38,806 nt of DNA from contig JAHFDP010000041.1 in the NCBI GenBank assembly GCA_023248955.1, positions 1 through 38,806 on the forward strand, given 5' to 3'. Within the stretch, counting starts at the first letter, position 1. The number at the start of each line of letters is the position of its first letter. The notes below the pieces were generated by a model. The model was not told the DNA's origin, did no database searches, and saw nothing but the letters and a program-made list of their open reading frames with translations. Shown here piece after piece: positions 7,878-31,406 of the stretch. The translations under genes and the position numbers were made by a program. This stretch comes from Deltaproteobacteria bacterium. Lineage in GTDB: Bacteria > Myxococcota > Myxococcia > Myxococcales > JAHFDP01.

Positions 7878-7908
7878 GTGGTGTGTATTCGGATGCAATA
7901 CAAACGAT

Positions 7909-9657: not shown

Positions 9658-9666
9658 GCGTGAATG

Positions 9667-11985
9667 TTACTGCGCGCGGGCGGGTCGCCCAAATTTGAGG
9701 ACGAGGAGCGCGATCACGAAAAGACCGATCAACGAAAACGCTGCGCCGACCGCGAGTCCGGGCGTTTGGTAGTTCCACGCGAGACGATGTTTTCCCTCGG
9801 GAACGGCGATCGCACGGAGCGCACCGTCAGCGGTTATCGAGATCGAATCCGCACCGTCGAGCGTGACGCGCCAGCCTGCACTCGCCGCATCGGAAAGGAG
9901 CGCTAACGAGGGTGCCGTGGCTTCGATTTCGGCTTCGAGGTGTTCGGGCTCATCCAACGTGATTCTCGCTGAGCCGCGCGGGGCCTTCCTTTTCTCGATC
10001 TCAGCGCAATCGCGCGCCATTGGAAAGTTCGCTGGAAGTCGCGCCACGTCACCCGCCGAAAGCCACGCGGCGTTACACGGTGGAACGAGTCCGGCAGCGT
10101 TGGAGCCGGCGAGCGCTCCTACCAAACGCAAGCGATCGTGCGCAGCAGCGTTTTTCCAAACGTGAACGAGACCTCCCGCTGCTGTCCCGAGCTCGGTGAA
10201 ACCGGCGCGTGCGTAGGGCGAGGCGCGGACGTCTGTTCCGTAGGCGATGCCGTAGCGCACGCCGAGTAGATCGAAAACCGCCGCGGGTGGCGCCGCCCCA
10301 AAAAGTGATTTGAGGTCACCTGGTGTGAAGCCCGAATAGCCACGCGCAGTCGAGAGGCCGTCGACGGCCGACGAGGCGCCGTAGAGCGCGAGATGGCGCA
10401 ACCAAAACAGTTTGCGCGGACGCGGCCACGTTGCGTCGCCCGCGGCTTCGACGTCCGCGGCCGACGCATGGTGTTCGACATCGATGCGATAATTTCGATC
10501 GGCTTGCGCGGCGTCGTCGCGAATGACTTTGGAAAGTGGTGACGGGGTGGTCACCGCGGCGGCGGGAAGGAAAAAATCGAGCCGCGAGGCGGGAACGGCG
10601 AGATCCACGAGCAGGATGGCGCTGCCAATAAAGGCCGCCGTACGTGCGCGCAAACGTCCAAGTGCAGCGAGCAGAAGCGTGAAGATCGCGACGGCGATGA
10701 GCGCAAATTCGGTGGCCGCCGAGGGAATGAGCGTCGCTGTAAGCGCGGTCGCCCGCTGCGTGCCCAGTCGCGCTGCGAACCAAGATTCCGCGAAAAAAAG
10801 GAGACCACCCGCGACGATCGCCAAGAGGGCCGCGCCGCTTGCGGCCATCGCGAGCGCGCGAAAGGACTCGAGCGTGGCGCGCTTCGGAAATTCACGAATC
10901 ACTTCCCAACCTGCGCCAGCCTGGATGGCGATCGCCAGCGCGAGTGGAATCACCAGCTTCTCGGGAAAACGAATGAGCTGCACCAGAGGGAATGCGCGAA
11001 AGAGAAACGCGTAGAGCGGCGTGTAGGCGCCGAAGGCCAGCGGAAGAAGCGCGGTCGAGGCCAGGACGAGAACCATGCGCGGCACGCGTGCGACGGAAGA
11101 TCGAAAGCCGGCGAACGCGAGCAGCAGCACCACGCCACCCGCGTAAATCTCCTGCACGTAGGGTCGTTGCAAACCGGGATTGAGTGACCAACTCGAAGCG
11201 CCCGGCGAATCGACCGCACCCGCGAAAAAGGGGAAGAGAAGATTCAGCAGACGAAGGGGATGAAGCGAATAGTCGGTGGCCTCCGCAAAGGACCAACCAG
11301 TCGCGCGCGAAGAGTGGCGCAGAAAAAGCGCGGTCGGTAAAATCTGCACGGCGGCGATGATCGCGCCGAGAAGCAGAGTGCTGAAAAAAACTGCGCCCGT
11401 CCGAACGCGTGTACCTGACTGCGCAACGCTCACGGCAAAGAGCGCCGCGAGGAAGATCGCACAGGCGCCAACTTCCGGCGTTCCGGAAAAAAAGAGAAGC
11501 GCCGCGACCAAGGCCGCGCTCGCCGCGGTTCGCCTCGACGGCGATCGTCCGAGAAAAACGCCGGTGGCGCAGAGCCACGGTAACCAGCTCGGCGCAATGG
11601 ATTGGCCGCTGGCAACGAGCGAGACGTAGGTTCCGCTCCAGGCGAAGGCGAGCGCGGCGACCACGCTTCCGGTTCGATCGATGCCGAGCGCGCGGCTCAG
11701 AGCGAACGTGCCGGCCACCGCTACCGCTGCATGCACGGCAACGAAGAGCGCGAAGCCGAGCGGGAGCGGAACGAGATAGGTGAGAAGCGAGAGCGGATGA
11801 AAGGCGTTGAAGTTGGGATCGACGAGCAATGGCGTGCCGCCATATTCGAATGGATTCCACTGGGGCAACCGGCCCGCGCGCAGCGCTTCGGCGAGCAGCA
11901 CTTTGTGCGGATAAAAATAGAGTCCGGCGTCGCGAAAGTAGAGTGCGTTTCCGAAAAAAAGGACCGGCGCAAAAAACAACAGCAC
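9667..11985 (-). CDS. YfhO-like multi-span membrane protein (GT-C-type fold)
   Basis: This protein of about 772 aa is dominated by hydrophobic segments (roughly 11-13 spans). An early non-cytoplasmic loop reads DAGLYFYPHKVLLAEALRAG and RLPQWNPFEYGGTPLL, the typical first loop of YfhO/GT-C proteins. The C-terminus has a beta-rich domain (LSDAASAGWRVTLDG and VPEGKHRLAWNYQTPG), a last span, and a basic tail. YfhO relatives transfer sugars from lipid-linked donors, for example in lipoteichoic acid glycosylation, but the substrate here is unknown. The start is uncertain: GTG 11985 falls inside the first hydrophobic segment, and the frame stays open upstream through KAGRLWVVLAIALP without an ATG, so the true start may lie near the secretin stop at 12059. 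Its place between secretin and ATPase genes hints at glycosylation of secreted or surface protein, but this is inference. Confidence 0.78.
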   Translation of the reverse strand: MLLFFAPVLFFGNALYFRDAGLYFYPHKVLLAEALRAGRLPQWNPFEYGGTPLLVDPNFNAFHPLSLLTYLVPLPLGFALFVAVHAAVAVAGTFALSRALGIDRTGSVVAALAFAWSGTYVSLVASGQSIAPSWLPWLCATGVFLGRSPSRRTAASAALVAALLFFSGTPEVGACAIFLAALFAVSVAQSGTRVRTGAVFFSTLLLGAIIAAVQILPTALFLRHSSRATGWSFAEATDYSLHPLRLLNLLFPFFAGAVDSPGASSWSLNPGLQRPYVQEIYAGGVVLLLAFAGFRSSVARVPRMVLVLASTALLPLAFGAYTPLYAFLFRAFPLVQLIRFPEKLVIPLALAIAIQAGAGWEVIREFPKRATLESFRALAMAASGAALLAIVAGGLLFFAESWFAARLGTQRATALTATLIPSAATEFALIAVAIFTLLLAALGRLRARTAAFIGSAILLVDLAVPASRLDFFLPAAAVTTPSPLSKVIRDDAAQADRNYRIDVEHHASAADVEAAGDATWPRPRKLFWLRHLALYGASSAVDGLSTARGYSGFTPGDLKSLFGAAPPAAVFDLLGVRYGIAYGTDVRASPYARAGFTELGTAAGGLVHVWKNAAAHDRLRLVGALAGSNAAGLVPPCNAAWLSAGDVARLPANFPMARDCAEIEKRKAPRGSARITLDEPEHLEAEIEATAPSLALLSDAASAGWRVTLDGADSISITADGALRAIAVPEGKHRLAWNYQTPGLAVGAAFSLIGLFVIALLVLKFGRPARAQ

Positions 11986-12058
11986 CGGTAGCGCGATGGC
12001 CAGAACGACCCAAAGGCGTCCCGCCTTCTCCTCGTTCTTCGAGACGAAAATGGTCTTC

Positions 12059-13486
12059 TCAGTCGAAGATACTGAACGAAACCTGATCGCCGGCGGACTT
12101 GTAGAGATCCTTGGCGTCCTCGATCAGCTTCTGAATGCGCTCGCTGTCGGGATTGACAATTTTCGGCGTGACGAAAATCGCCAGCTCCGTTTTCTTGTCG
12201 AGAAAGCCGCGGCTCTTCAAGAGCTCGCCGATGATCGGGATGTGGCCGAGCAACGGAAACTTCGAAACGTTCTTCTGTTCGTCGTAGTTGAAAATCCCCG
12301 AAAGCACGATGGTCTCGCCATGCTTCACGGTGACCTGCGTCTTCACTTCACGAATGGAGAAGCCGGGCACATTGTTCACGGTGAGCGTGCGATCGATATC
12401 GCTCACTTCGGAATCGATATCGGTGGTGATGTTGCCCTGCTTGTCGGCGTTGGGCTTCAACTTGAGGAGCACGCCGAACCGTTTGAACTCGATCGCCGTG
12501 GTGTTGGCGGTGACCGTAACGATGGGGATCTCGCCGCCGACGTGGAACGAGGCCTCTTCACCGGACGCACACACCAGGCGCGGTTGCGAGAGCACGCGCC
12601 CGTATCCATTGTTCTGACCAGCACCGAAGGCGAAGCTGCTGCCAGCCGAGACGACGCCACCCACATTGAGCGTGTTGGCGGGATTTCCAGGCAGGGGAAA
12701 CCAATCGTGCGCGACGTTGCCGGTACCGGTGACCGCGCTGCCTTGCCAATTGAGCGGCAGCTGCACACCGAACTTGAGATCGTTGCTCTTGCGAAGCTCG
12801 ACGAACTGCACTTCGACGAGAACCATCCGCTTGATGCCCACCGTCAACAGGTTGTGCGCGCTTTCGCCGAGTGCGTGCACCAAGAGATCGGCCTTCTGCA
12901 ACTCTTCTTTCGACTCGACGCTGCCCTCGAGAAAAATCGTGGCGCCGTAAACGTTCACGCTGATGTTCTTCATGCCCGCTTTCTGAAAGGAGCCGACGAG
13001 ATTTTGCGCGGCCAACTTTTTGGCGTTGTTGCTCGCCCGTACGAAGCTTCTGACGTTGGGATAGAGCTGCGTGATCTGCTGCACGCGTTCGAAGTCGTCG
13101 GTGGTGAGCGCCTCTCCATCCATGTAAATGCGATCGCCGACGATGCGCAGTTGCACGCCTTCGCGATCGCCGAGGAGGGCGCGCACTTCACTGACAACCT
13201 CGCGCGGATCCTGCCGGTGAACGACGACCGAGTAGGTGATGCGGCCGCTCGACTTGAACAACAAGAGCGACGTGCGTCCTTCGGAAAGACCGGTGAGTAA
13301 AATTTCGCTGGCGCCAACGGACTTCACGCTGGCCACTTCTTCGTTGCCGATGGAGGCCTTAGTCACGCCTGGGACGGAGAGTGTCTTCTGCTGTCCGATG
13401 CCGAGGGTGATGTTGCCGCCTTCTTGCGCGGCGGCGCTCGGGACAACCGACAAAAACGTGAACGTGGCGAGGAGAGCGGAGCGCAT
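12059..13486 (-). CDS. cpaC: CpaC/RcpA-type outer-membrane secretin
   Basis: This 475-aa protein starts with a Sec signal peptide (MRSALLATFTFLSVVPSAAAQ). An N-terminal pilus-secretin domain (about 25-95, with LSVPGVTKASIGNEEVASV and LLTGLSEGRTSLLLF) and a BON-like segment follow. The secretin core (about 215-440) has SQPRLVCASGEEASFHVGGE, VTVKHGETIVLSG and FPLLGHIPIIGELLKSRGF, the canonical secretin C-terminal signature, followed by ELAIFVTPKIV. In Tad systems the secretin multimer forms the outer-membrane channel for the pilus. ATG 13486 is chosen over an in-frame ATG at 13522 because it places the signal peptide at the N-terminus and has GGGAGA about 12 nt upstream on the coding strand. 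It lies 39 bp downstream of the prepilin peptidase gene and belongs to the same run. Confidence 0.91.
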   Translation of the reverse strand: MRSALLATFTFLSVVPSAAAQEGGNITLGIGQQKTLSVPGVTKASIGNEEVASVKSVGASEILLTGLSEGRTSLLLFKSSGRITYSVVVHRQDPREVVSEVRALLGDREGVQLRIVGDRIYMDGEALTTDDFERVQQITQLYPNVRSFVRASNNAKKLAAQNLVGSFQKAGMKNISVNVYGATIFLEGSVESKEELQKADLLVHALGESAHNLLTVGIKRMVLVEVQFVELRKSNDLKFGVQLPLNWQGSAVTGTGNVAHDWFPLPGNPANTLNVGGVVSAGSSFAFGAGQNNGYGRVLSQPRLVCASGEEASFHVGGEIPIVTVTANTTAIEFKRFGVLLKLKPNADKQGNITTDIDSEVSDIDRTLTVNNVPGFSIREVKTQVTVKHGETIVLSGIFNYDEQKNVSKFPLLGHIPIIGELLKSRGFLDKKTELAIFVTPKIVNPDSERIQKLIEDAKDLYKSAGDQVSFSIFD

Positions 13487-13525
13487 GGGGGACGGAATTC
13501 TCCCTGAGAAAATGAAATACATACG

Positions 13526-13984
13526 TTATACGACGTTATACTCGACGAGCAAGGAAACGAGGGCGCCCGTGGCGATGGCGACGCCGTAGGGAAGATGTTT
13601 GGGCGCGGGCTTCTTGCGCAGGCGCGCGGCGGCAATCCAGAGAATGCCTTGAAGGCCGCCGGCAATGGAGACCGCGAGAAGGAGGCCCAGCGCGAAGGGC
13701 CAACCTTTGAGCGCGCCGGCCGCGGCCATCAGTTTGACGTCGCCATCGGCCATCCATCCGAAAAAAAAGGCGGCAAGAAAAGGAGCCGCGGCCACAGTGG
13801 TTCCGAGGAGTGACGATTGCAATTCCAACCAGCCGCCCAGGAAATGCAGACCGATCCCGACCCCCAGCGCCGACAAGGTAACGACATCGTAAATATGCCG
13901 CGATCGCAGATCGGTAACCACGCAAATGGCGAGCGCCAAAACGAGAACGACATTCGCTGCGTATACGGTAAACGGTGCGATCAC
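13526..13984 (-). CDS. TadV/CpaA-type prepilin peptidase (A24 family)
   Basis: This 152-aa membrane protein has about five or six hydrophobic segments. Both catalytic aspartates of the type IV prepilin peptidase family are present: TDLRSRHIYD near residue 25, and MADGDVKLM near residue 80, which aligns with the family GxGD motif although the first Gly is Ala here. It lacks the N-methyltransferase domain of PilD, as is normal for the short TadV/CpaA form (about 150-170 aa). It would cleave leaders of Flp-type prepilins at the inner membrane, but no pilin gene is in the window. The start overlaps the upstream FHA gene by 4 bp, so the two are translationally coupled. Confidence 0.86.
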   Translation of the reverse strand: MIAPFTVYAANVVLVLALAICVVTDLRSRHIYDVVTLSALGVGIGLHFLGGWLELQSSLLGTTVAAAPFLAAFFFGWMADGDVKLMAAAGALKGWPFALGLLLAVSIAGGLQGILWIAAARLRKKPAPKHLPYGVAIATGALVSLLVEYNVV

Positions 13985-14790
13985 CTAAACACGCAGGTCA
14001 GTTTTTCGGAGCAGATGAAGTATTCGTCGCCGTCTTCAATTTTTCGCCGCGTGATGCGCCGTTTGTCGAACCAGGTCCCGTTCGACGATCCGAGATCTTC
14101 GATGTAGTAGGCCTCGCCTTCGCGCACGATGGCCGCGTGCTCGCGGGAAACTTTTCCCGAATTAATGACGAGGTCGCAGTGCTTGCCGCGCCCCAGAACG
14201 AAGCGATCTTTTCCCACCCGCTCTAGTTCGCGACCGTCGCCCATGATGATCAGAATCGGGTCGGGTAACGCTGTTGAAGGCGAAACCGCCGCCTGCTCTC
14301 CGGTGTCGGAAGGTGGCGCGGCGTCGTCGCCGAGCAGAGAGTCATCGATCTGTTTCTCGTCAACGATCGGTTCCGCCTGCTCCGGCGCGCGGTCGCTCCA
14401 ATTTTCTCGGCTCTCGAGCTCCAACGGTGGTTCCAGTGTCGCCGCCCGTTTTTCAGGCACGGCAATCGGCGCGGCCTCTACAACCGGTTGCTGCGAGGGC
14501 GACGTTGGACTTGGAAACGAAGTCCCGGAGACGTTCGCGCGTGGATCGGCGAAGAGCCCTGGCTCCTTGGTTTCGTGCGCTGAACCAATCGGCGCCTCGA
14601 CCTCATTTTCATTCGGCGTGATCGAAACGTCGGCCGTTTTGGGCGCGACGTAGCCCGCCGCATGCGCGAAAAAGTGAACCGCTTGCGCCACTAAAATTTC
14701 CCGGTCGATGCCCATGTCGCGCGACATCGCGGTCAGCGCGTCCCAGAGGTGATCGGGAATCGTGACGAGTTTTCCGTTGGCTTCGGCCAT
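13981..14790 (-). CDS. FHA-domain protein with N-terminal ribbon-helix-helix-like segment
   Basis: This 269-aa protein is predicted to be soluble and is the first gene of the minus-strand run. Residues 1-50 (KLVTIPDHLWDALTAMSR, then DREILVAQAVHFFAH) have the strand-helix-helix pattern of a CopG/RHH-like unit. A long acidic, Pro/Ser-rich linker (about 55-165) follows. The C-terminal FHA domain (about 170-269) shows VLGRGKHCDLVI, VSREHAAIV and LGSSNGTWFDKRRI, the conserved Gly, Arg, Ser-x-x-His and Asn-Gly residues of the fold. It probably combines dimerisation or DNA binding with phosphothreonine recognition; whether it binds DNA is not shown. The coding strand has GGTGAG just before the ATG. 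It may regulate the Tad-like genes it leads. Confidence 0.82.
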   Translation of the reverse strand: MAEANGKLVTIPDHLWDALTAMSRDMGIDREILVAQAVHFFAHAAGYVAPKTADVSITPNENEVEAPIGSAHETKEPGLFADPRANVSGTSFPSPTSPSQQPVVEAAPIAVPEKRAATLEPPLELESRENWSDRAPEQAEPIVDEKQIDDSLLGDDAAPPSDTGEQAAVSPSTALPDPILIIMGDGRELERVGKDRFVLGRGKHCDLVINSGKVSREHAAIVREGEAYYIEDLGSSNGTWFDKRRITRRKIEDGDEYFICSEKLTCVFR

Positions 14791-15032
14791 GACTCACCGT
14801 GGGTTCGAGGAACGTTGATTCTCAAGTCATCTGTGGGCCCCGGTCAAATTGTTGGCCGTGAGCGAGCGCGCAAGCGGCTGTCCGGCATACCCCTTGCTGC
14901 ACTCCATCTCGATGCATTCAAAAGGCGTTGTTCGAGTCCCAATTCTTCCGATTTGCGCCGAACATCCGGGCAAATCGCGCGGGTCGTGGGGAGAATTCGA
15001 CGGATAAGCGCACGTTCAACACGGGAGTCCAG
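14791..15032 (+). promoter_or_regulatory. Divergent intergenic region between the Tad/FHA operon and the sigma-54 regulator
   Basis: This 242-bp stretch separates two divergent genes and must hold the promoters of both. I could not identify a convincing -35/-10 or -24/-12 pair on either strand. The only clear signal is a ribosome-binding site, GGGAG at 15023-15027, five bases before ATG 15033. It decides the start of the response regulator against an in-frame ATG at 14928. Confidence 0.5.
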
Positions 15033-16547
15033 ATGGATCGACCCACTAGCGTGCTCGTGATCGATGACGATGTCGATGTGCGCGACTACCTCACCGAATT
15101 TCTGACGACCGAGGGATTTCGCGTGACGACCGCTGCCGATGGTGAAGCGGCGCTTGCGGCGTTGACCGAAGGGCCGCGCCGACCTGCGCTGGTGCTGCTC
15201 GATTTGCGGATGCCGGGGCTTGATGGATTCGAAGTGCTGCGCAGGTACCGGATGAACGACCAACAGACACCGGTGATCGCGCTCTCCGCGTTGGGCGAGG
15301 CGGAGACCGTGGTGCGCGCCATGAAGCTCGGCGCGAGCGACTACTTGGCGAAACCATTCGACGTCGATCAGCTTCGCGATGCGCTGGCGCGCGTTCTAGC
15401 GGTGGCAAGTCCCATTGCCACGTCGGTCGAGTTGAAACCCGAGCGACGTGGTCGTCTCGCACCGCCCGATTACGTTTCCGCCAGTCCCGCGATGGAACGC
15501 ATCTGGGAAATGGTGGAGCGCGTCGCGCACACCGATGTTCCGATTCTGATTCGCGGCGAGAGCGGCGTTGGCAAGGAAGTCGTGGCGCGCCAGCTGCACA
15601 CGCGCTCGAATCGCAACGGCCGGCCGTTTATCAAAATCAATTGCGCCGCATTGCCCGCAGAACTCTTGGAGAGCGAGCTTTTCGGTCACGAACGTGGTGC
15701 GTTTACGGGCGCCACCAGCGAAAAGCCCGGCAAGTTCGAATTGGCCAACACCGGCACGATCTTTCTCGACGAGATCGGCGAGATGCATCCGTCGCTGCAA
15801 GCGAAGATGTTGCAGGTTTTGCAGGACGAGGAATTTTACCGAATCGGCGGCAAGCGACCGGTGCGCGTGGATGCGCGCGTGGTAACGGCCACCAACCGCG
15901 CGCTCGAGGAGGAGATCGCACGCGGTAATTTTCGCGAGGATCTTTATTACCGTTTGAACGTTGTCTCGATCGCGGTGCCGCCGCTTCGCGAGCGACGCGG
16001 CGATGTCGCGCTTTTGGTGGAACACTTTCTCAAAAAATATGGCGACAAATACAAAGGCGGCGCGTTTTCGGTTCCGCCAGAAGTGATGCAGGTTTTCGCG
16101 TCGTATGCGTGGCCGGGCAATGTGCGCGAGTTGGAAAACATGGTGCGGCGATTGGTGGTGCTGCGCGACACCTCGCTGGTGTTGGAAGAGCTTGCGGGGC
16201 GCCGGCCCTCAAGCAGTGCGATCTCGACGGCGATGTCGCCGGGATCGAGCATGGCCGCCGCGCCGCGCACCAGCGTGCTTGCCGAGAATTCGGAGGAGGG
16301 ATCTGGGGCGGCCATCGGGTCCGTGACGTCGCTGCAGCCGGAGTCGGTTAGCCTGAAAGCGATCGGCCGCCACGCAGCGATGCTTGCGGAGCGCGAAGCG
16401 ATTCACCGCATGCTGCAGAAGACCAACTGGAACAAGCGCAAAGCCGCGGTGCTGTTGCAGATCAGCTACAAGGCGCTGCTCTACAAAGTGAAGGAGTGCG
16501 GGATCATCGATCCGCGCGAGCAGGCCAGTACGTTGGCGAGTGGGTAA
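15033..16547 (+). CDS. Sigma-54-dependent response regulator (NtrC family)
   Basis: This 504-aa protein has all three NtrC-family modules. The receiver domain (about 1-120) has the acidic pocket VIDDD, the phospho-acceptor Asp at residue 57 (LVLLDLRMPG) and the Lys in YLAKPFD. The AAA+ domain (about 150-385) has Walker A GESGVGKE, the sigma-54-contacting loop GAFTGA in ELFGHERGAFTGA, Walker B IFLDEIGEM, and the FREDLYYRLNV and WPGNVRELEN motifs. A Fis-type helix-turn-helix (NWNKRKAAVLLQISYKALLYKV) lies at the C-terminus. Such activators drive open-complex formation at sigma-54 promoters when phosphorylated. The gene lies upstream of an EPS operon with a -24/-12 promoter at 17003-17018, so that operon is the likely target. 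No partner histidine kinase is nearby. The resemblance to PrsR-type regulators of EPS clusters is by arrangement only. Confidence 0.93.
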   Translation: MDRPTSVLVIDDDVDVRDYLTEFLTTEGFRVTTAADGEAALAALTEGPRRPALVLLDLRMPGLDGFEVLRRYRMNDQQTPVIALSALGEAETVVRAMKLGASDYLAKPFDVDQLRDALARVLAVASPIATSVELKPERRGRLAPPDYVSASPAMERIWEMVERVAHTDVPILIRGESGVGKEVVARQLHTRSNRNGRPFIKINCAALPAELLESELFGHERGAFTGATSEKPGKFELANTGTIFLDEIGEMHPSLQAKMLQVLQDEEFYRIGGKRPVRVDARVVTATNRALEEEIARGNFREDLYYRLNVVSIAVPPLRERRGDVALLVEHFLKKYGDKYKGGAFSVPPEVMQVFASYAWPGNVRELENMVRRLVVLRDTSLVLEELAGRRPSSSAISTAMSPGSSMAAAPRTSVLAENSEEGSGAAIGSVTSLQPESVSLKAIGRHAAMLAEREAIHRMLQKTNWNKRKAAVLLQISYKALLYKVKECGIIDPREQASTLASG

Positions 16548-16555
16548 GCGTGGGT

Positions 16556-16783
16556 TCAACTCGTCGCGTGCATTGGTACGAGTTTGGTCTGCACACGGTG
16601 CACAACAGGCTCTGGGGCCTGTGGCGTTAACGTGTGGCGCAGCACCGGCGCCCCGGCCATCAGCATTGCTCCAGACGCGATGAGCAGCGTCGGCTCCAGA
16701 ACACCGATGTTGGTCTTGAATGCTGCCAGCGCCGCGGCTGCCGTGGCGAACGTCAACGTCGTCCAAACCGCTGTACGGATCAT
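16556..16783 (-). CDS. Small predicted membrane protein, 75 aa
   Basis: The sequence is not recognised as a known family. It has two hydrophobic stretches, AVWTTLTFATAAAALAAF (about 5-22) and VLEPTLLIASGAMLMAGAPVL (about 28-48), then a polar tail with several Pro, His and Gln residues. ATG 16783 is chosen because the coding strand has GGGGGAG immediately upstream, a strong ribosome-binding site; an in-frame upstream extension to 16840 has no such signal. The gene converges on the sigma-54 regulator with 8 bp between stops and diverges from the EPS operon. A near-consensus -24/-12 element lies 53 bp upstream of its ATG. Two spans, a clear RBS and an otherwise empty interval support a real gene, but there is no homology evidence. 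Confidence 0.5.
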   Translation of the reverse strand: MIRTAVWTTLTFATAAAALAAFKTNIGVLEPTLLIASGAMLMAGAPVLRHTLTPQAPEPVVHRVQTKLVPMHATS

Positions 16784-16835
16784 GTGCTCCCCCGAAACAA
16801 GGCGGGCCCCCCCGCGAGCTTGCACAGTCAAGAGA

Positions 16836-16851
16836 TCCAACTGCCGTGCCA
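16836..16851 (-). promoter_or_regulatory. Candidate sigma-54-like promoter for the small membrane protein gene
   Basis: On the minus strand the sequence reads TGGCAC-N5-TTGGA. The -24 half is a perfect match to the sigma-54 consensus TGGCAC-N5-TTGCW and the spacing is right. The -12 dinucleotide is GG instead of the near-invariant GC, which would weaken or abolish activity. It points towards ATG 16783. It may be a decayed or non-standard site, or a chance match. Confidence 0.3.
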
Positions 16852-16894
16852 GCGCGCTCGCCTGAGCCTTCTGGTTGTCCGCCTAAGAACGTGG

Positions 16895-16977
16895 GCGCGA
16901 TCACGGTTCAACGTCGCTCGTCCTAGGAAACATTTTTCTACAGCGCGGAATCACGCTGCCTTTCATGGTCGTCGCTC
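16895..16977 (+). repeat. Paired direct repeats, candidate upstream activator sites
   Basis: Two motif pairs recur in the region between the divergent promoters. GCGCGATCACG (16895-16905) is followed by CGTCGCTC (16912-16919). GCGCGGAATCACG (16943-16955) is followed by CGTCGCTC (16970-16977). They lie 30-120 bp upstream of the -24/-12 promoter at 17003. Sigma-54 activators normally bind repeated sites somewhat upstream of the promoter, so these are candidates for the response regulator. The repeats are short and no binding specificity is known. Apart from these and the two promoter elements I see nothing else in 16784-17064. Confidence 0.3.
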
Positions 16978-17002
16978 CTCTCGACTCCTCGCACAACTGC
17001 TG

Positions 17003-17018
17003 TGGCACAGCGCCTGCT
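17003..17018 (+). promoter_or_regulatory. Sigma-54 (-24/-12) promoter of the EPS operon
   Basis: The sequence reads TGGCAC-N5-CTGCT, compared with the consensus TGGCAC-N5-TTGCW. The invariant GG (17004-17005) and GC (17016-17017) have the exact 10-bp spacing, and only one of the conserved positions differs. Transcription would start near 17029, giving a leader of about 36 nt before the first EPS gene at 17065. That gene has GGAGG at 17055-17059, five bases ahead of its ATG. The adjacent sigma-54 activator gene makes this functionally coherent. Confidence 0.75.
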
Positions 17019-17064
17019 TGGTTCTCAAAAGCGTGGCGGATCCGCGTCACGACCGGAGGCGAGC

Positions 17065-17613
17065 ATGCGGGCAGGATGGCTCTTTGTTCTGGCTTGGGGA
17101 TGCGCGCACGGAACGAATTTACCGACGGCGCCGCCGAAGGCATTGGTGAGCGACTACCGCGTGGGTGCCGGCGACGTCTTGGAGATCGCGGTGTGGCGCA
17201 ATGGCGAGATGTCGCGCATCGTTCCGGTTCGGCCCGATGGACGCGTGACGTTGCCGCTCGTGGGCGACGTGGAAGTCGCTGACCAAACGCCCGTGCAGAT
17301 TGGCGCCGCGATCGAAAAGCGGCTGGTGGGCCTCGTTCAAGATCCGCAGGTGGCGGTGATTGTGCGCGAGGTCAATGCGTCTCACTTTTATGTGGTGGGT
17401 GAAGTCGAAAAACCGGGCGTTTATCCGATCCACGAAGCGATCACGCTCTTGCAAGGACTGGCCATGGCCGGCGGCGCGGGGCCCTTTTCTTCACGCGATG
17501 AAGTGCAGGTGGTTCGCGGTGTCGGCGTCCGTTACCGCGTGGACTACGCCGATCTCCTCAACGGCAAAACCACCATGCCCATCGAGCCTGGCGACACGAT
17601 TTACGTGCCTTGA
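17065..17613 (+). CDS. Wza-family outer-membrane polysaccharide export protein
   Basis: This 182-aa protein is short, as the smaller OPX proteins are. The N-terminus (MRAGWLFVLAWGC) looks like a lipoprotein signal with a non-canonical lipobox (Ala-Trp-Gly-Cys). The poly-export domain (about 30-105) reads YRVGAGDVLEIAVW and RPDGRVTLPLVGDVEVADQT. An SLBB-like domain (about 108-180) begins with FYVVGEVEKPGVYP and ends with PGDTIYVP. In Wzx/Wzy systems this class moves polymer across the periplasm and outer membrane; a form without a C-terminal alpha-helical barrel often works with a separate beta-barrel, which fits the next gene. ATG 17065 has a strong RBS (GGAGG). It is the first gene after the sigma-54 promoter. 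Confidence 0.9.
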   Translation: MRAGWLFVLAWGCAHGTNLPTAPPKALVSDYRVGAGDVLEIAVWRNGEMSRIVPVRPDGRVTLPLVGDVEVADQTPVQIGAAIEKRLVGLVQDPQVAVIVREVNASHFYVVGEVEKPGVYPIHEAITLLQGLAMAGGAGPFSSRDEVQVVRGVGVRYRVDYADLLNGKTTMPIEPGDTIYVP

Positions 17614-17642
17614 CAAAAAATCAAGTCGCTAAACGAGCCGCC

Positions 17643-18872
17643 ATGCGCCACCTGATCCCATCGATTCCAATCGCGGCGCTGCTTGTTGCGGTGTTGCTCG
17701 CCGCGGCGCAGGCCAACGCGGCGCGCACCGCGCTGGACAGTCGATTCACCCTCGGCGGCGCTTACGACTCCAACGTGCTCTTGTCGGGAGACGGCGGCGA
17801 TCTCATCGCGAGCGTGACACCCGATCTGATGTTGACGGTTCGCGGGGAACGCGTTGCCGGCGATATCGACTATACCGGCGATCTTCTCTGGTACGGCGGA
17901 CGCGGCGCTCGGGTGCTCGATCACGATCTGCACCTGCTTGGGCAGGTGTGGGGAACACCGCGGTTGCTGGTGCGGTGGGACGCGCGCGGACGTTACGCTA
18001 GCGACGAACTGGCGCTTGCGCGGTGGGGGTTCTTGCGCCCACAAAGTGCGGCGGCCCTTGGTGATGGCGAATTCGGCATCACGTTTCGTTTCACGCCGAC
18101 CGACGAGCTCTTCGCTGGCGTTCGCGAGGACGCGCTCGTTTTCGTTCCCGAAGATGGCACCTCGACCATCCGACTTTCTCCCTACAACGGCTGGTTCAAA
18201 TCGCTGGACCCGCGTGACGTGCTGGGCGTTGTCGGCCGCGCGCAGCTCTTCATGCTCGCGTCAACCAGCGTCATCGGCACTGGGCTCGGCCTCTCTGCCG
18301 AGTGGAAACGGCGGGTGAGTGAGCACGTTGATCTCGATCTGCTGCTTGGACCGCAAATGTACGACGAGGGGCATCACGCTTTTTTTCTCCCACGCGCTTC
18401 CGCCGCCATTGAGATCGCGTGGCGTGAAAGCCGCGGGCTGCATGCCGATCTGATCCACGACTTGGTCATCGGCGCCAATCATGCTGGTGCGCTGGTGGGC
18501 GACATCGCGGAGGGCGGCGGCTTTTGGTGGCTTACGCCGTCGCTCCGTCTCTCCGGCCGCGTTGGTTATTACGGCAATAGCAGCGTCTCCAACCCGGCCG
18601 AGGGGTGGGAGGCGCCAGCTTGGCTGGCAACGGGTGGAGCGAGAGGGCGCGGAGCAGTGGAGGAGGCGCCAGCTTTGCTGGCAACGGGCGGAGCGCGAAG
18701 GCGCGGAGCAATGGTCGATGGTTACGTTGTCGAGGCGCGCGGTGAATACGCGCTGACACATGGATTTTTTTTCGGCGTTGGCGCGACGCGTGTTTCTGGA
18801 TTCGGCGCCGCCGCGCTCGAGCGAAATCTCGTGAATGCGAATGTTGGCTGGTCGTCCACTCGTCGTCGCTAG
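17643..18872 (+). CDS. Outer-membrane beta-barrel protein of the EPS export system
   Basis: This 409-aa protein has a signal peptide (MRHLIPSIPIAALLVAVLLAAAQANA), then alternating amphipathic strands rich in Tyr, Trp and Gly, starting FTLGGAYDSNVLL, as in barrel proteins of EPS loci. It ends in strand-like NVGWSSTRRR. No enzymatic motif is seen. Such barrels are thought to provide the outer-membrane pore for short OPX proteins; that role here is inferred from position. ATG 17643 is preferred over TTG 17610 because it starts the signal peptide. Residues about 323-358 are two copies of an 18-residue repeat (APAWLATGGARGRGA, APALLATGGARRRGA) encoded by a tandem DNA element at 18608-18715. They look like an insertion in an extra-membrane loop. 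Confidence 0.75.
   Translation: MRHLIPSIPIAALLVAVLLAAAQANAARTALDSRFTLGGAYDSNVLLSGDGGDLIASVTPDLMLTVRGERVAGDIDYTGDLLWYGGRGARVLDHDLHLLGQVWGTPRLLVRWDARGRYASDELALARWGFLRPQSAAALGDGEFGITFRFTPTDELFAGVREDALVFVPEDGTSTIRLSPYNGWFKSLDPRDVLGVVGRAQLFMLASTSVIGTGLGLSAEWKRRVSEHVDLDLLLGPQMYDEGHHAFFLPRASAAIEIAWRESRGLHADLIHDLVIGANHAGALVGDIAEGGGFWWLTPSLRLSGRVGYYGNSSVSNPAEGWEAPAWLATGGARGRGAVEEAPALLATGGARRRGAMVDGYVVEARGEYALTHGFFFGVGATRVSGFGAAALERNLVNANVGWSSTRRR
18608..18715 (+). repeat. Tandem pair of GGAG-hairpin repeat elements, 54-bp period, inside a gene
   Basis: Unit A is 18608-18661 and unit B is 18662-18715, with 48 of 54 bases identical. Each begins GGAG, then GC, then a perfect 6-bp hairpin GCCAGC-TTK-GCTGGC (K is G in A, T in B). 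The 3' half in unit B contains GGAG-CGCG-AAGG-CGCG-GAG. The period of 18 codons keeps the gene in frame. Single-base changes fall mainly outside the first stem. Related copies occur at 20702-20734 (same strand) and 30343-30392 (opposite strand). Confidence 0.85.
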
Positions 18873-18894
18873 AGCTCCATGAAGGGAGAACGTG

Positions 18895-20259
18895 ATGGAT
18901 CGCGCGTACACCGTTTTCGAAATGTTGGCCGTGGTGCGGCGCCGCTTGCGGCTGATGGCCGCGACGGCGGCGATGGTGATCGCGGGCGCGGCGGTGGTAA
19001 TCGCGGCGTTGCCCACAGAGTACCGCGTGGGTGCGGTAGTGCTCGCCGAGCCCAACCGGCCACACGCGGATCTGATCACGCCGGCGGTAACCTGGACTGT
19101 CGAAGATCGCGTGAAGTCCGTGCGCCAGCAGCTCCTGGCGCGCTCCACGCTCGAGCGGGTCATCACCGAACTCGATCTCTACCAGAGGGATCGCGCGCGC
19201 CATGGCGCGGATGCGGCGGTGGCGCTGTTGCGACGCCATCTCGAGATCAACGCGGACGGAGAGGGCGTGTTCAGCGTCTACTTTACATTCGACAATCCGC
19301 AGCAGGCCGCGCGCGTGGTCAACCGGTTGGCGGCGATTTTCATCGAGGACAATCTCGCGCTCCGCGAGCGACAGGCCTCGCGCACCAAATCGATCGTCAG
19401 CGTTGCGCTCAGCGAGATGCGCGATCAAGTGGAGCAGACGGAGCGGCGCATCGATGCGTTCAAACGCGCCCATGCCACCGAGCTGCCGGAAGCGGTGGAA
19501 GGAAATCTGCGCGAGCTGGATCGCCACAACAAGCTGGTGGAGATCGCGGAGACGTTCCGACGCGAAGCGGAACATCGACGCGCCATGATCGGTGTCGGCG
19601 AACCGGGCCACGACACCGAGGTTGGACGGCTCACCGCTTTGCGCGAAACCGCTGTGGCCAACGTGCGCGCGCTCTCGGCGCAATACACGGACGACTTCCC
19701 CGATGTGGCCGCGGCCCGGCGCGAGATGGCGGCGATCGAGGCAAGTCTCACTTCGGCACGCGCGCGTGCGGCACAAGACGATCTCGAGTTGCGGCGCATG
19801 AATTCAGAGGTGCGCAAGAGCGAAGACGACATCGTGAACCACCAGAAGCAGATGGGTTTCATTCAAGCGCACGTTGACGCCGCGCCGAAATGGGGCGCGT
19901 CACTTTCCGTGCTTACGCGTGAGCAGGAAGTTCTCAGGGCGAAGTATGGACAACTCCTCTCCAAGCAGGTGGAGGCCGAGGTCGCGCTTGAGCTCGAGCG
20001 CAAATCGGACGCGGCAAGTTACCGCCTGATCGACGCGGCGAAGGTTCCCGATGCGCCGTCGGGACCGGATCGCGCGCACGATTTCACGCTGGCGTTTCTC
20101 GCGGCGCTCGTGCTCGCGGGTGTGGTGGCCTTTGCCGTGGATGCACGCGACACGAGTTTGCGGAGCAGTGGAGAAGCGGCGGCGGCGGCGCGGCTTCCCG
20201 TGTTGGCCTTGGTGCCCAGCATGGATCACGTCGTCGCTCGCGGACCGAGCGGATCGTGA
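18895..20259 (+). CDS. Polysaccharide co-polymerase (Wzz/GNVR-type chain-length determinant)
   Basis: This 454-aa protein has two membrane spans, LMAATAAMVIAGAAVVIAAL near residue 22-41 and DFTLAFLAALVLAGVVAFAV near residue 400-420. They enclose a long periplasmic region rich in heptad-like helices (about 150-345), such as RDQVEQTERRIDAFKRAHA and LTREQEVLRAKYGQLLSKQ. The first span is preceded by VRRRLRL, and the domain after it resembles the Wzz family. These proteins set polymer length and connect to the outer-membrane exporter and the tyrosine kinase. The cytoplasmic C-terminus is short and carries no kinase, which is encoded separately next door. ATG 18895 has AGGGAG about 6 nt upstream; GTG 18892 is a possible alternative. 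Confidence 0.88.
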   Translation: MDRAYTVFEMLAVVRRRLRLMAATAAMVIAGAAVVIAALPTEYRVGAVVLAEPNRPHADLITPAVTWTVEDRVKSVRQQLLARSTLERVITELDLYQRDRARHGADAAVALLRRHLEINADGEGVFSVYFTFDNPQQAARVVNRLAAIFIEDNLALRERQASRTKSIVSVALSEMRDQVEQTERRIDAFKRAHATELPEAVEGNLRELDRHNKLVEIAETFRREAEHRRAMIGVGEPGHDTEVGRLTALRETAVANVRALSAQYTDDFPDVAAARREMAAIEASLTSARARAAQDDLELRRMNSEVRKSEDDIVNHQKQMGFIQAHVDAAPKWGASLSVLTREQEVLRAKYGQLLSKQVEAEVALELERKSDAASYRLIDAAKVPDAPSGPDRAHDFTLAFLAALVLAGVVAFAVDARDTSLRSSGEAAAAARLPVLALVPSMDHVVARGPSGS

Positions 20260-20293
20260 CCATCTTTTGTCCCCGCACTTCTTAGGAGCGAAC

Positions 20294-21073
20294 ATGGGCG
20301 AAAAAGCTGTAGTGGGTCGGGCCTCATTTCTGGAGCGGATCGACGGCAATGGGCGCGGGTTGGCGCTGGACGCAACGTGCGTTGCGGTGACCGATTCAGC
20401 GAGCGCGACGGCGGAACAATTTCGCGTGCTCTACCACCGACTGGCGCGCATGCGAGCGTCGGAAACGCTTCCCGTCATTGCGATCACCAGCGCCATGCAC
20501 GGAGAGGGGAAGACCTTCACCGCGGTGAACCTCGCACTGACCGCGGCACGCGCGAACCGCGACCGGCGCGTGGCGCTCATCGATTGCGATCTTCGCCGCC
20601 CGAGTGTCGGCGCGCTGTTGGGACTCGTGGGCCACACCGGGCTGGCACAGGTTCTCGCCGGCCGAGCGGAACTTGAAGTTGCCATGAGCACAGTTGAGGA
20701 CCTGGCGACGGGCGTAGCGCGAAGGCGCGGAGCATCCAACAGTGCGCTGACGGTGATCGCTGCGGGCGAACTCGCTGGTGAAGGCAGCGCAGCGCTGCTT
20801 AGCTCGCGTCGCATGACGCTCTTCCTCGAAGACTTGCGTGGATCGTTCGACGAGATCTACCTCGACGCGCCGCCAGCGATTGGCAACGCCGACGGGCCGA
20901 TCGTCTGCGCCCAAGCGGACGCAACGCTGATGGTGGTGCGCGCGAACGACACGCAGCGTGAGTCGGTGATGCAAGCGCTCGACTCGTTGGGCGGCGTGGC
21001 CGTGGTGGGGTTGGTTCTCAATCGCGTCGAGCTACGGTCGGTTCCGCGGCGCGCGTTGGGCAACGGTCGCTAG
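20294..21073 (+). CDS. CpsD/CapB-type bacterial tyrosine kinase-like ATPase
   Basis: This 259-aa protein is a P-loop protein of the BY-kinase/ParA superfamily. Walker A is HGEGKTF at residues 69-75, Walker A' is ALIDCDLRRPS near 95, and Walker B is EIYLDAPPAI near 190. It would be the cytoplasmic partner of the co-polymerase gene just upstream. The C-terminus (VELRSVPRRALGNGR) has no tyrosine cluster, unlike typical autophosphorylating kinases, so it may control export by ATP cycling or phosphorylate other proteins. Residues about 137-147 (LATGVARRRGA) match the repeat-encoded peptide in the beta-barrel gene and sit in a loop before LTVIAAGE. ATG 20294 is chosen for AGGAG at 20284-20288; a longer frame from 20051 is an overlap artefact. 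Confidence 0.87.
   Translation: MGEKAVVGRASFLERIDGNGRGLALDATCVAVTDSASATAEQFRVLYHRLARMRASETLPVIAITSAMHGEGKTFTAVNLALTAARANRDRRVALIDCDLRRPSVGALLGLVGHTGLAQVLAGRAELEVAMSTVEDLATGVARRRGASNSALTVIAAGELAGEGSAALLSSRRMTLFLEDLRGSFDEIYLDAPPAIGNADGPIVCAQADATLMVVRANDTQRESVMQALDSLGGVAVVGLVLNRVELRSVPRRALGNGR
20702..20734 (+). repeat. Partial copy of the dispersed coding repeat in the tyrosine-kinase gene
   Basis: These 33 bases match 18678-18710 (unit B of the tandem pair) at 31 positions. They are in the same strand and the same reading frame, and encode LATGVARRRGA versus LATGGARRRGA. The GGAG foot and first hairpin are missing or degraded; only TTGAGGAC precedes it. It is best explained as the 3' part of an old insertion. 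Confidence 0.75.
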
Positions 21074-21088
21074 CGGCGTGGAGGCAAA

Positions 21089-22417
21089 ATGGTCAGCGTT
21101 TTCTCCCACTACTGCTCGCCGCGGCAGATCGGACTTTTTGCGCTCGAAGCATTTGCGCTGGCCGCAGCGATTTCGATCGCGCTTCTCCTCTCCGGCGCAC
21201 CCGTGCTCGTCGCGACGGTTGGCGCACCGCTGAGCGTTTTGTTGGGATTGTTTTACCTCGTGGATCTCTACGACCTTTCGCGCGCCGCAACAGAGGCGCG
21301 GAGTGGCCCGCGACTCCTCGTCGCGCTGGGAGCGTCCGCGGGCGCGTGCGGGGCCATGGCGCTGCTGCTTCGTCTCTCATTCCCGCCGGGCGCGCTGCTG
21401 GCGTCCTTTGGTGGTGCGTGCGGTGCGGCGTTGCTGGTGCGAACGGCGTGGGCCGCGGCGCAACCGGGACGCCTCGTTCGCTTGCTCGTTTTCGGCGCCG
21501 GTGCTCGGGCGCGCGAGTTGGCGCGTTCCATCACCAGCGGCGCCGGCAGCGAATATGAGATCGCCGGCTTCATCGGCGAGAACGACGCACAGGTTCTCAG
21601 CGGGGACAAGGATCTGCTCTCCCTCGCGCGCCGCGTTGGCGCGTCGATCGTTGTTGTGGCGCCGGACGATCGCCGCGGCAGTCCGGTCGAACAGCTCCTG
21701 CGTTGCCGCGCGTCGGGTGTTCAGGTGCTGGAGATGTCGACGTTCTCCGAACGCGCGCTGCGGCGGCTTCCCCTCGCGGTGTTGCGGCCCTCGGAGCTGG
21801 CGTTCCAAGATGGATTCGCGCAGTCGGTGCTGGCTGACTCGTTGCTCCGCATAGGCGACGTCGCGATGTCACTCATCATCCTCATTCTCTCCGCGCCGGC
21901 GCTCGCGCTGGTGAGCATCCTCATCAAACTCGATTCGCCGGGGCCACTCCTGTACCGGCAAGATCGCGTCGGGCAGGGCGGTCGTACGTTCGAAATCATC
22001 AAGCTGCGCACCATGTGTTGCGACGCCGAAGCCGGCACCGGCCCTGTCTGGGCGGGTGAGCGCGATGCACGCATGACTCGGCTCGGCGCGCTCTTGCGAA
22101 AATGTCGTGTCGACGAAATTCCGCAAGTTTGGTGTGTCTTGCGCGGCGACATGTCCTTCGTGGGTCCGCGACCGGAGCGGCCCTTCTTCGTCGATCAGCT
22201 CGCGCGGCAGATTCCTTTTTACCGTCTGCGCGAAGCGGTCAAACCAGGCATCACCGGCTGGGCACAGATTCGCTACCCCTACGGCGCCAGCATCGAAGAC
22301 GCGCGCGCCAAGTTGGAGTTCGATCTTTATTACATGAAGCACCGCTCCCTTTTTCTCAACCTGCTGGTCATCTTCCACACCGGCAAGACGGTGCTCTTCG
22401 GAAAGGGTGCGCGATGA
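21089..22417 (+). CDS. Initiating sugar-phosphate transferase (polyprenyl glycosylphosphotransferase)
   Basis: This 442-aa protein has four or five N-terminal spans (about 15-130), a Rossmann-like CoA_binding_3 segment (LVFGAGARARELARSI near residue 133), another span near 250, and the cytoplasmic bacterial sugar transferase domain. That domain has DSPGPLLYRQDRVGQGG, FEIIKLRTM, DEIPQVWCVLRGDMSFVGPRPERP and KPGITGWAQI, all hallmarks of the WcaJ/WbaP family. It transfers a sugar-1-phosphate to undecaprenyl phosphate to start each repeat unit at the inner membrane; the sugar is not predictable. The arrangement resembles the EpsB-type transferases of exosortase-associated EPS clusters. ATG 21089 has GGAGG at 21080-21084. 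The stop overlaps the next gene by 4 bp. Confidence 0.93.
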   Translation: MVSVFSHYCSPRQIGLFALEAFALAAAISIALLLSGAPVLVATVGAPLSVLLGLFYLVDLYDLSRAATEARSGPRLLVALGASAGACGAMALLLRLSFPPGALLASFGGACGAALLVRTAWAAAQPGRLVRLLVFGAGARARELARSITSGAGSEYEIAGFIGENDAQVLSGDKDLLSLARRVGASIVVVAPDDRRGSPVEQLLRCRASGVQVLEMSTFSERALRRLPLAVLRPSELAFQDGFAQSVLADSLLRIGDVAMSLIILILSAPALALVSILIKLDSPGPLLYRQDRVGQGGRTFEIIKLRTMCCDAEAGTGPVWAGERDARMTRLGALLRKCRVDEIPQVWCVLRGDMSFVGPRPERPFFVDQLARQIPFYRLREAVKPGITGWAQIRYPYGASIEDARAKLEFDLYYMKHRSLFLNLLVIFHTGKTVLFGKGAR

Positions 22418-23643
22418 GAAGCGGACTTCAGACGTCGCGTGTCGCGCTTGTGCAAACGTCGCGCAACGACGCTGGCGCGCCGCGCATCGTGCCCGCGGAA
22501 GGAGGCGCGCTCCATTGCGCCGTGGAGGTGCGTGAAGGTCGCGAAGCTTTTGCTTCCGCGCAGAAAGCTTGGAACGGCGTGCTCGCCGAAGGACCGCGCC
22601 GCGATCCCTTTTTTCGTCACGAGTACCAGCGAATCTGGCTCGAGAACTTCGCGCCGTCCGCTTCACCGCTGACTTACCTCGTTCGCGCCGGCGGACGCGT
22701 TCGGTTGGCGGCGGCGCTGGTTCCGCAGCAGGGACGGGTGCTCGGCGTACCCGTGCGAATGTTGACGTTACCCGCGAACGACCATTCGAATCGCAGCGGA
22801 TTCGCGCTCGGCGAAGGCGATGCTGCACCAGCGCTGGCGGCGCTGTGGCAACGGGTGCGCGAGGCAACGTGGGATGTGCTTTTGCTGCGCGATCTTCCGG
22901 AAGGCGCACCGGAGCTCTCGGTGATTTCCAAGCTTGCCGCGGACGACGGCCATCCGACGGGAACCTGGTGCTCGCAGCGTTCGCCCTACGTTGCGCTGGA
23001 AGAATTCTCGCAAGGCTCAGGCACGGCCGCGGAGCGCGTTTTCGCCAAGCTGCCCGCGCACTTCCGCGCGAATCTGCGACGTCGCCGAAAAAAATTATCC
23101 ACGCATGGCGCCGTGGAGTTCGAACGCGCCGACGGATCACGTGACCTGGAAGCGCTGCTCGAAGAAGCGTTTCGTCTCGAAGCCTCGGGCTGGAAAGGGC
23201 GCGGCAAAACAGCGATCGCCACAGCCCCGCAGACGGTCGGATTTTATTCAGCGCTGGCACGTTGGGCGGCGCGTGAAAAAATGCTGTCGCTCTCGTTTCT
23301 CAAAGTCGGCGCCACGCGCGTGGCCTTTCACTTCGGGCTCATGAGCGATCGAAAATATTATATTCTAAAGTGCGGCTTCGACGAAGCCACCAGCGACTGC
23401 TCGCCCGGGCAACAACTGCTCGGCGACGTGTTGACCGACTGCGTGGATCGCAACTTATTGGAACTCGATTTTCTCGGCCCCAGCATGCCGTGGAAGCTCG
23501 ACTGGACCAGCACCGTGCGCGCCCACCGCTGGCTCACCATTTTTCGCCCCACGCCCATGGGCCGCGCATTGTGCGCGGCGAAATTTACGGTGGCGCCACT
23601 CGTGAAAGGCTGGACTCGTGGACATGCGCGCGTTGAACGTTGA
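22414..23643 (+). CDS. FemAB/CelD-like (Acetyltransf_6) acyltransferase, first copy
   Basis: This 409-aa protein has a GNAT-like fold of the Acetyltransf_6/CelD (BcsL) group. The diagnostic region is KYYILKCGFDEATSDCSPG around residue 310, then QQLLGDVLTDCVDRNLLELD and FLGPSMPWKLDW. A basic segment FRANLRRRRKKL near residue 220 precedes the domain, also typical. Members of this group occur in polysaccharide operons and are thought to transfer acyl or aminoacyl groups; the donor and acceptor here are unknown. ATG 22414 overlaps the transferase stop (ATGA), so a longer upstream frame is discarded. A second homologous gene lies at 24832-25992. Confidence 0.8.
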   Translation: MRSGLQTSRVALVQTSRNDAGAPRIVPAEGGALHCAVEVREGREAFASAQKAWNGVLAEGPRRDPFFRHEYQRIWLENFAPSASPLTYLVRAGGRVRLAAALVPQQGRVLGVPVRMLTLPANDHSNRSGFALGEGDAAPALAALWQRVREATWDVLLLRDLPEGAPELSVISKLAADDGHPTGTWCSQRSPYVALEEFSQGSGTAAERVFAKLPAHFRANLRRRRKKLSTHGAVEFERADGSRDLEALLEEAFRLEASGWKGRGKTAIATAPQTVGFYSALARWAAREKMLSLSFLKVGATRVAFHFGLMSDRKYYILKCGFDEATSDCSPGQQLLGDVLTDCVDRNLLELDFLGPSMPWKLDWTSTVRAHRWLTIFRPTPMGRALCAAKFTVAPLVKGWTRGHARVER

Positions 23644-24835
23644 TTCAGACTTCGTGCGCCGTGTCGCGCTGAAACCGGTTCCACAGGCGATCGGGGGGGC
23701 AACGCGTCTGATTCCGTCGTTGCCAACACTGTGGCCGCACATGCTGCTGCCCAACGCGAACGTGCGTGCCGAGTCGTTGCCGCCGCCGTTCGGAATTCGT
23801 TCCGCGCGCTACTGGTACTTCGCGCGCAATGCAGTGTGGCACGCGGCCAATCTTTTCGATTTGGCGGGCAGCGAGATGTTGATGCCGGCCTATTTTCACG
23901 GCGTCGAAGTGGACGCGCTTCGCGCGGCGGGTGTGCACCTTGTCTGGGTGCGCGTCGATCGGCGCATGCAACTCGATCTCGCCGATGCGCGCGCTAAGTG
24001 CACGCCGCGAACGCGCGCCATCTACGCGATTCACTACGCCGGTTTTCCGCAAGACCTCGACGGGCTCTCGGACCTTTGTCGCGAGCGCGGGCTTTTTCTC
24101 CTCGAGGATTGCGCGCTGTCGTTGTTGTCGTCGCACCGCGGACGTTGGCTGGGGACCGTTGGCGACGCGGCGATTTTTTGTCTCTACAAAACGTTGCCCG
24201 TCCCCAATGGTGGCGCGCTGGTGGTGAAAGATCGCGACCTAGCGTTCTTGTCGGCGTCGCATGCGCCGACGCTGCTCACGACTGCCTCGCACGCCGCATC
24301 ACAGTTGATGGCGAATCTCGAATTGCGCGCGGGCGCGTGGACGACGCCGTTGCGAACGGGCTTGCGCGAAGCGGCGCGTTGGATGGCGCGGCAGCGCGGT
24401 GCGGTGCGCGTGTCGACGGGAACGCAGCGGTTCGAGGTGGGCAACGCCGATCTCGGCATGAGCGCGCTCTCGGATCAGATCATCCGCGGACTCGATCTGG
24501 CCGCCATTGTTCAGCGCCGGCGCCGCAACTACCAGCGACTTGCCGCGGCGTTCGAGGGCTCTTCGTTCAACCGGGATCTTTCTGACGGCGTCTGTCCGCT
24601 CTTCGTTCCGCTGGAGACGCTCGACAAGTCGCGGGTACTGGCGCGGCTCTTGGCACGTGGCATTTCCGCCATCGATTTTTGGCGCACGCCGCATCCGCAC
24701 GGTCCGGCGCTCGGCACCTTTCCCGAAGTCGACGCGCTGCGCGAAACGGTGCTGGAGCTGCCGTGCCATCAGGATCTCGAGGACGAGGACATCGACCGGA
24801 TGATCGTCGAAGTGCGGGCGGCGGTGCGCGGATGA
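23618..24835 (+). CDS. DegT/DnrJ/EryC1-type PLP-dependent aminotransferase homologue
   Basis: This 405-aa protein has the fold-type I sugar aminotransferase pattern. A conserved acidic motif LLEDCALSLLSS near residue 165 would hold the PLP ring nitrogen. The lysine in IFCLYKTLPVPNGG near residue 190 lies seven residues before the Gly-Gly, as the Schiff-base lysine does in the DegT family. An early IRSARYWYFARNAVW segment replaces the usual family start. These enzymes aminate keto sugars or, in some lineages, act as dehydratases. The gene starts inside the preceding one; GTG 23618 has AAAGG about 10 nt upstream, and ATG 23624 is an alternative. It likely supplies an amino sugar for the EPS, or works with the flanking acyltransferases to install an acylated amino group. 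Confidence 0.82.
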   Translation: MDMRALNVDSDFVRRVALKPVPQAIGGATRLIPSLPTLWPHMLLPNANVRAESLPPPFGIRSARYWYFARNAVWHAANLFDLAGSEMLMPAYFHGVEVDALRAAGVHLVWVRVDRRMQLDLADARAKCTPRTRAIYAIHYAGFPQDLDGLSDLCRERGLFLLEDCALSLLSSHRGRWLGTVGDAAIFCLYKTLPVPNGGALVVKDRDLAFLSASHAPTLLTTASHAASQLMANLELRAGAWTTPLRTGLREAARWMARQRGAVRVSTGTQRFEVGNADLGMSALSDQIIRGLDLAAIVQRRRRNYQRLAAAFEGSSFNRDLSDGVCPLFVPLETLDKSRVLARLLARGISAIDFWRTPHPHGPALGTFPEVDALRETVLELPCHQDLEDEDIDRMIVEVRAAVRG

Positions 24836-28555: not shown

Positions 28556-28724
28556 TCCCGGCCAACTTCGCAGACATCCTTCTCCTACCGATTCGGATTG
28601 CGGCTCGCGGTGAACACCACGCTTGTTCGAGTCGTTTTCATTGGCTCTCCGAAAACCGCATGAAAAGGGCGAACCGTGACGCGAGGAAATTTTCTCGGCT
28701 GCCGTCGTGATGTAAAATGAAAAA
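28556..28724 (+). promoter_or_regulatory. Intergenic region with a candidate -10 element for the 64-aa gene
   Basis: This 169-bp gap after the flippase is more AT-rich than its neighbours. TAAAAT at 28713-28718 matches the TATAAT box at five of six positions and lies seven bases before ATG 28725, so a transcript would be nearly leaderless. A -35 box at the right spacing is poor (TTTTCT at 28690). No terminator hairpin with a T-run is present, so EPS transcription could read through. Confidence 0.35.
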
Positions 28725-28919: not shown

Positions 28920-28961
28920 ATCCAGTCGAGGAAACGCTTCGTCGCGCCCTGAGAGGAATGA

Positions 28962-31404: not shown

Positions 31405-31406
31405 CC

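Follow-up and report, generated by a model that had tools for sequence, protein, structure and literature searches.

What kind of operon begins at position 17065 of this window (the whole stretch of 38,806 nucleotides that was analysed), and what switches it on? The first-pass annotation of this DNA had placed a near-consensus sigma-54 promoter, with GG and GC at exact spacing, directly before an EPS operon, and had suggested that the NtrC-family regulator encoded beside it switches on the polymer machinery in response to an unknown kinase.

The operon itself comprises:
17065-17613, plus strand: short exoA-like OPX lipoprotein (domain and profile matches, synteny)
17640-18872, plus strand: exoB-like outer-membrane protein, weak TIGR03016 match (profile match, synteny)
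18895-20259, plus strand: Wzc-type chain-length protein without kinase domain (profile match, synteny)
20204-21073, plus strand: tyrosine autokinase of the Wze/CapB type, start approximate (profile match, synteny)
21089-22417, plus strand: polyprenyl glycosylphosphotransferase, TIGR03013/TIGR03025 (profile and domain matches, synteny)
22414-25992, plus strand: FemAB-type GNAT, DegT aminotransferase and second GNAT, ordered as in the exo operons of relatives (domains, synteny)
25965-28555, plus strand: polysaccharide deacetylase and Wzx flippase, followed by a 407-bp gap (domains, synteny)

Twenty relatives from this bacterial order keep much of the gene arrangement. The Myxococcus-like relatives share the series OPX, beta-barrel, Wzc, kinase, glycosylphosphotransferase, GNAT, DegT and GNAT, a likeness to the exo operon of M. 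xanthus (MXAN_3225-3233; PMC2875238, PMC4320627). From the distance to an act-like locus, together with the literature, we infer that the relatives' locus corresponds to MXAN_3225-3233 and that the operon of the window is of the exo (spore-coat polysaccharide) type. The polymer operon of the first-pass annotation stood, and its generic EPS label was refined to exo type. The EPS (EpsY/EpsX) and BPS (WzaB/WzpB) systems of M. xanthus also pair an OPX protein with a beta-barrel protein (PMC9601211). Paralogous OPX proteins from the genomes compared here, however, share only about 30-40% identity with the query, and their genes have neither the promoter nor the enhancer described below.

Other gene sets were observed around the operon. 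After the 407-bp gap, 28962-36501 (plus strand) encodes a lipoprotein, glycosyltransferases, an asparagine-synthase-like protein and a heparinase II/III; these genes may form a second unit of the polymer locus. Upstream of the regulator, 6042-14790 (minus strand) holds a Tad-like pilus set with FHA-domain proteins, a type II/IV secretion ATPase with an FHA domain, a secretin and a prepilin peptidase. A tyrosine-recombinase-like gene (37884-38804, minus strand) stands at the window end.

The candidate promoter precedes the first gene of the operon:
17003-17018, plus strand: predicted sigma-54 (-24/-12) promoter of the exo-type operon, TGGCACAGCGCCTGCT (motif, and conservation in 39/41 orthologous promoters)

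The site reads TGGCAC-N5-CTGCT, a single mismatch from TGGCAC-N5-TTGCW, with GG at -24, GC at -12 and 10 bp between them. It is separated by 46 bp from the ATG at 17065 of the OPX gene, which follows a GGAGG ribosome-binding site, and the predicted transcription start falls near 17029. In Aquincola, the same -24/-12 pair (TGGCAC and CTGCTT) precedes a mapped RpoN-dependent start (PMC9850573). The genome encodes one full rpoN (411 bits, cut-off 277); no sigma-70-like promoter was found in 16500-17100, and no Rfam RNA in 14600-29000. Among Markov sequences as long as the 281-bp gap, 0.4-0.5% contained a plus-strand site with one mismatch (p about 0.004-0.005). At two mismatches, the 18 sites in the whole window were not above the 17.3 expected by chance, and genome-wide matches showed no enrichment over the reversed pattern. 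The motif alone is thus weak evidence, and the strength of the case comes from conservation across the order.

We oriented the loci of relatives by tblastn before scanning their promoters. Among 41 orthologous exoA upstream regions, 29 contained a one-mismatch site and 10 a two-mismatch site; the site was kept at about the same place in 39/41 (19/20 genera, 8/9 families), nearly always 59-132 bp ahead of the exoA start codon. At an equal level, sites occurred in 6% of shuffles and in 2/27 paralogous OPX promoters (orthologues vs. paralogs, Fisher p = 4e-14). The conserved promoter forms an island, with strongly diverged flanking DNA among the orthologues. The two exoA regions without it belong to G007, the sole genome of family f8, and to G026, where the exoA match begins at residue 23. 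A coincidental likeness, with another promoter (e.g., one controlled by FruA/MrpC) driving the operon, would fit the FruA binding reported ahead of the exo promoter in M. xanthus (PMC4320627) and the lack of genome-wide motif enrichment. It is hard to reconcile with a fixed place in 19/20 genera, compared with paralogs and shuffles, and with a 16500-17100 interval free of sigma-70-like promoters, and we regard it as highly improbable. The predicted sigma-54 site is almost certainly real. Its description as near-consensus with exact spacing was borne out, and the order-wide conservation adds support.

The regulator and the region ahead of it contain:
14883-14898, plus strand: weak -24/-12-like site, CGGCATACCCCTTGCT, 150 bp before the regulator (matching position in relatives)
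15033-16547, plus strand: NtrC-type response regulator, probable ActB orthologue (receiver, AAA+ with GAFTGA, Fis-type HTH)

All the features of an NtrC-type enhancer-binding protein are present (receiver, AAA+ domain with intact GAFTGA, Fis-type HTH), so the domain matches agree with the class first proposed. The protein showed 56-66% identity to one orthologue per genome, with a clear score gap to paralogs. In a regulator alignment from which several antisense rows were left out, its HTH was nearly invariant where the operator is kept. No genome outside the source's order had the regulator in a sample of 146 from the phylum. Its gene adjoins exoA in families f3, f5, f7 and f9. In f4, the Myxococcus-like family (9-Mb genomes), 10-20 kb separate the orthologue from exoA downstream of it, and the gene directly before the orthologue encodes a 317-aa GGDEF ActA-like protein, a neighbour seen in f4 only. 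This resembles M. xanthus, where actB (MXAN_3214; PMC8570273) is preceded by actA (302 aa, GGDEF; PMC4877007); perfect TGGCACA-N4-TTGCT sites upstream of the act-like genes in f4 also match the published M. xanthus act promoter (PMC9765219). The window differs from this arrangement, with the regulator directly before exoA and no GGDEF gene beside it. Because gene order and act promoter match M. xanthus, we take the regulator for an ActB orthologue and assign the operon to the exo type; this orthology is probable, and was assigned from gene order rather than from a named M. xanthus sequence. No kinase gene adjoins the regulator and, for this reason, the unknown kinase of the first proposal stands as the presumed source of the input signal.

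In f2, f4 and f7, the regulator gene itself is preceded by a perfect TGGCACA-N4-TTGCT promoter, which is degraded in the window (CGGCATACCCCTTGCT, 14883-14898). At locus L097 (G007:C40), the ActB-like regulator of f8 appears to have no receiver domain, and the exoA of this genome has no sigma-54 site.

A protein of this class needs a place to bind, and the upstream DNA offers a candidate:
16926-16960, no strand: predicted enhancer formed by a pair of GGAA-N6-TTCC-like dyads, GGAAACATTTTTCT and GGAATCACGCTGCC, at a 21-bp spacing (motif search and genome-wide rank)

We searched upstream of the -24 element for every palindrome that combines 4-bp half-sites with a spacer of 0-11 bp (3072 patterns). 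GGAA-N6-TTCC ranked first and was exact in 13 genomes of 5 families. Within one mismatch, it was present in 34/39 orthologues vs. 1/27 paralogs and 10% of shuffles. Among tandem spacings of 14-35 bp, those of 21 and 22 bp stood out in the orthologues only, with none in the paralogs. The window pair reads GGAAACATTTTTCT-ACAGCGC-GGAATCACGCTGCC. Two dimer sites two helical turns apart are a usual layout for sigma-54 activators. The pair was the top tandem-motif match in the whole source genome, and the exo site also ranked top genome-wide in G043, G028, G025, G005 and G013, although the motif was built partly from these same promoters and their scores are not independent. Since exo sites rank top within whole genomes, the tandem element appears specific; it was hard to make out in f3, f9 and part of f4. 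These dyads are a probable enhancer. A perfect tandem-operator copy was also observed at L210 (G029:C59, operator at about 5219, reverse strand), followed by a one-mismatch sigma-54 site; both precede a 210-aa gene with no assigned function, downstream of a GGDEF-like protein. This gene is a possible second target in G029.

Does the adjacent regulator use this enhancer? Across 60 genomes, an ActB-type regulator was found in 38/42 exoA-positive vs. 0/18 exoA-negative genomes (Fisher p = 8e-12, a value inflated by the relatedness of the genomes in a test confounded by phylogeny). Regulator and exoA are both missing in parts of f3, f4, f5 and f7, and this joint absence argues for functional coupling. 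Among exo-positive genomes, G005, G014 and G015 had no full ActB-type regulator and G012 gave a partial match, some genomes being incomplete; G007 has exoA with neither the site nor a neighbouring regulator.

A real promoter could also be served by a different sigma-54 activator, for example of the Nla6 or Nla28 type, which would bind the dyads while the adjacent regulator targets other genes. Genomes of this order encode many NtrC-type regulators each, and G005, G012 and G014 keep the promoter despite a missing or partial ActB orthologue. Nla6 is reported to bind exo-type promoters in M. xanthus (Saha and Kroos, 2024), which would count in the same direction, and recent work on M. xanthus exo reportedly adds, besides Nla6, a more complex role for FruA. 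Weighing against it, the ActB-type gene adjoins exoA in four families and is absent jointly with exo, the HTH is nearly invariant wherever the operator is conserved, and the Nla28 half-sites CT(C/G)CG(C/G)AG (PMC9765219) are unlike GGAA-N6-TTCC. We consider this alternative unlikely.

In M. xanthus, ActB has been tied to csgA and exo to FruA (PMC4048283, PMC4320627). FruA reportedly both binds ahead of the exo promoter and regulates the operon (PMC4320627), so other regulators act at M. xanthus exo. No statement on ActB binding to or controlling exo was found in the M. xanthus literature, in a selection that covers the older act/exo work in part. Our comparisons suggest that ActB-type proteins probably turn on the exo operon directly. 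For the window, we hold with good confidence that 17003-17018 is a working sigma-54 promoter and that the ActB-type regulator of the adjacent gene, via the dyads at 16926-16960, activates the exo-type operon. The link between promoter and activator first suggested for this locus is supported by the conservation of the site, by a conserved tandem operator inside 16784-17000, and by the co-occurrence of ActB and exo.

In the mechanism that we propose, sigma-54 RNA polymerase would wait at 17003-17018 in a closed complex. The regulator, once phosphorylated, would bind the tandem dyads as dimers, assemble its AAA+ ring, contact sigma-54 through GAFTGA and open the promoter. Transcription would begin near 17029, and the products of the exo-type operon would assemble and export a cell-surface polysaccharide, whose spore-coat identity is predicted from the operon type. 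The same enhancer probably also serves a weaker opposite-strand sigma-54 promoter that would drive a small membrane protein.

The divergent elements are:
16556-16783, minus strand: small gene encoding a predicted two-helix membrane protein of 75 aa (position and strand kept in most relatives; ribosome-binding site)
16836-16851, minus strand: -24/-12-like site, TGGCACGGCAGTTGGA, lacking the C in its -12 GC; the start codon of the small gene follows after 52 bp (similar site in 18/39 promoters)

The small gene has 58-75 codons across the order and lies between regulator and exoA; the 75-aa protein had no Pfam match. The dyads stand between the 17003 site and the opposite-strand site. A site facing the small gene was found in 18/39 promoters including the window, mainly in f4 and f7, often with the -12 C replaced. 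It is quite possible that 16836-16851 is not a promoter and that the exo promoter alone is real, with the small gene expressed otherwise: the -12 GC has lost its C in the window and in f4 (TTGRW), and a good minus-strand site is absent in f2, f3, f5, f6 and f9. On the other side, f1, f4 and f7 keep a similar site at the matching location, properly positioned before a conserved small gene. On balance, we lean towards a divergent sigma-54 promoter weaker than the 17003 site.

The layout proposed here parallels the PrsK/PrsR-sigma-54 circuit of PEP-CTERM systems, in which an NtrC-type regulator acts with an upstream motif 1 followed by the -24/-12 element (PMC1569441, PMC9850573). In the layout seen here, about 55-160 bp separate the upstream motif from the -24/-12 element and about 70 bp separate that element from the start codon, an arrangement parallel to the circuit of Haft 2006 (PMC1569441). 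Both systems are linked to TIGR03013-type polysaccharide genes. PEP-CTERM motif 1 ends in TTTACA, whereas the window motif is GGAA-N6-TTCC. Membership in the PrsR/PEP-CTERM system, raised by TIGR03013/03027/03007-type matches, was rejected: the regulator scored 360.3 bits against PrsR (TIGR02915), below the cut-off of 502.6, no PrsR passed the cut-off in 60 relatives, and neither PrsK nor an exosortase was found in the source genome. Because no member of the PrsR, PrsK or exosortase families was found, the window circuit would work like the PEP-CTERM/PrsR one without belonging to it.

The regulatory unit itself is of a known kind, and the pairing of ActB-type regulators with exo is a new link within that kind. 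Which proteins directly activate the spore-coat operon of myxobacteria is a question under active study, and our results give an exact prediction that can be tested in a laboratory organism, plus a candidate binding motif for ActB-type proteins. They contribute a precise link from an ActB-type activator to a spore-coat-type operon, for which we do not claim priority, and a new conserved small gene, probably under common control with the polymer machinery. More broadly, there is an even chance that ActB-type regulators are, ancestrally and order-wide, dedicated direct activators of the spore-coat-type polysaccharide operon, acting on a tandem GGAA-N6-TTCC enhancer from which the conserved divergent gene for a micro-membrane protein is driven as well. 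If this is true, C-signal timing in Myxococcus would be a later or additional task of ActB.
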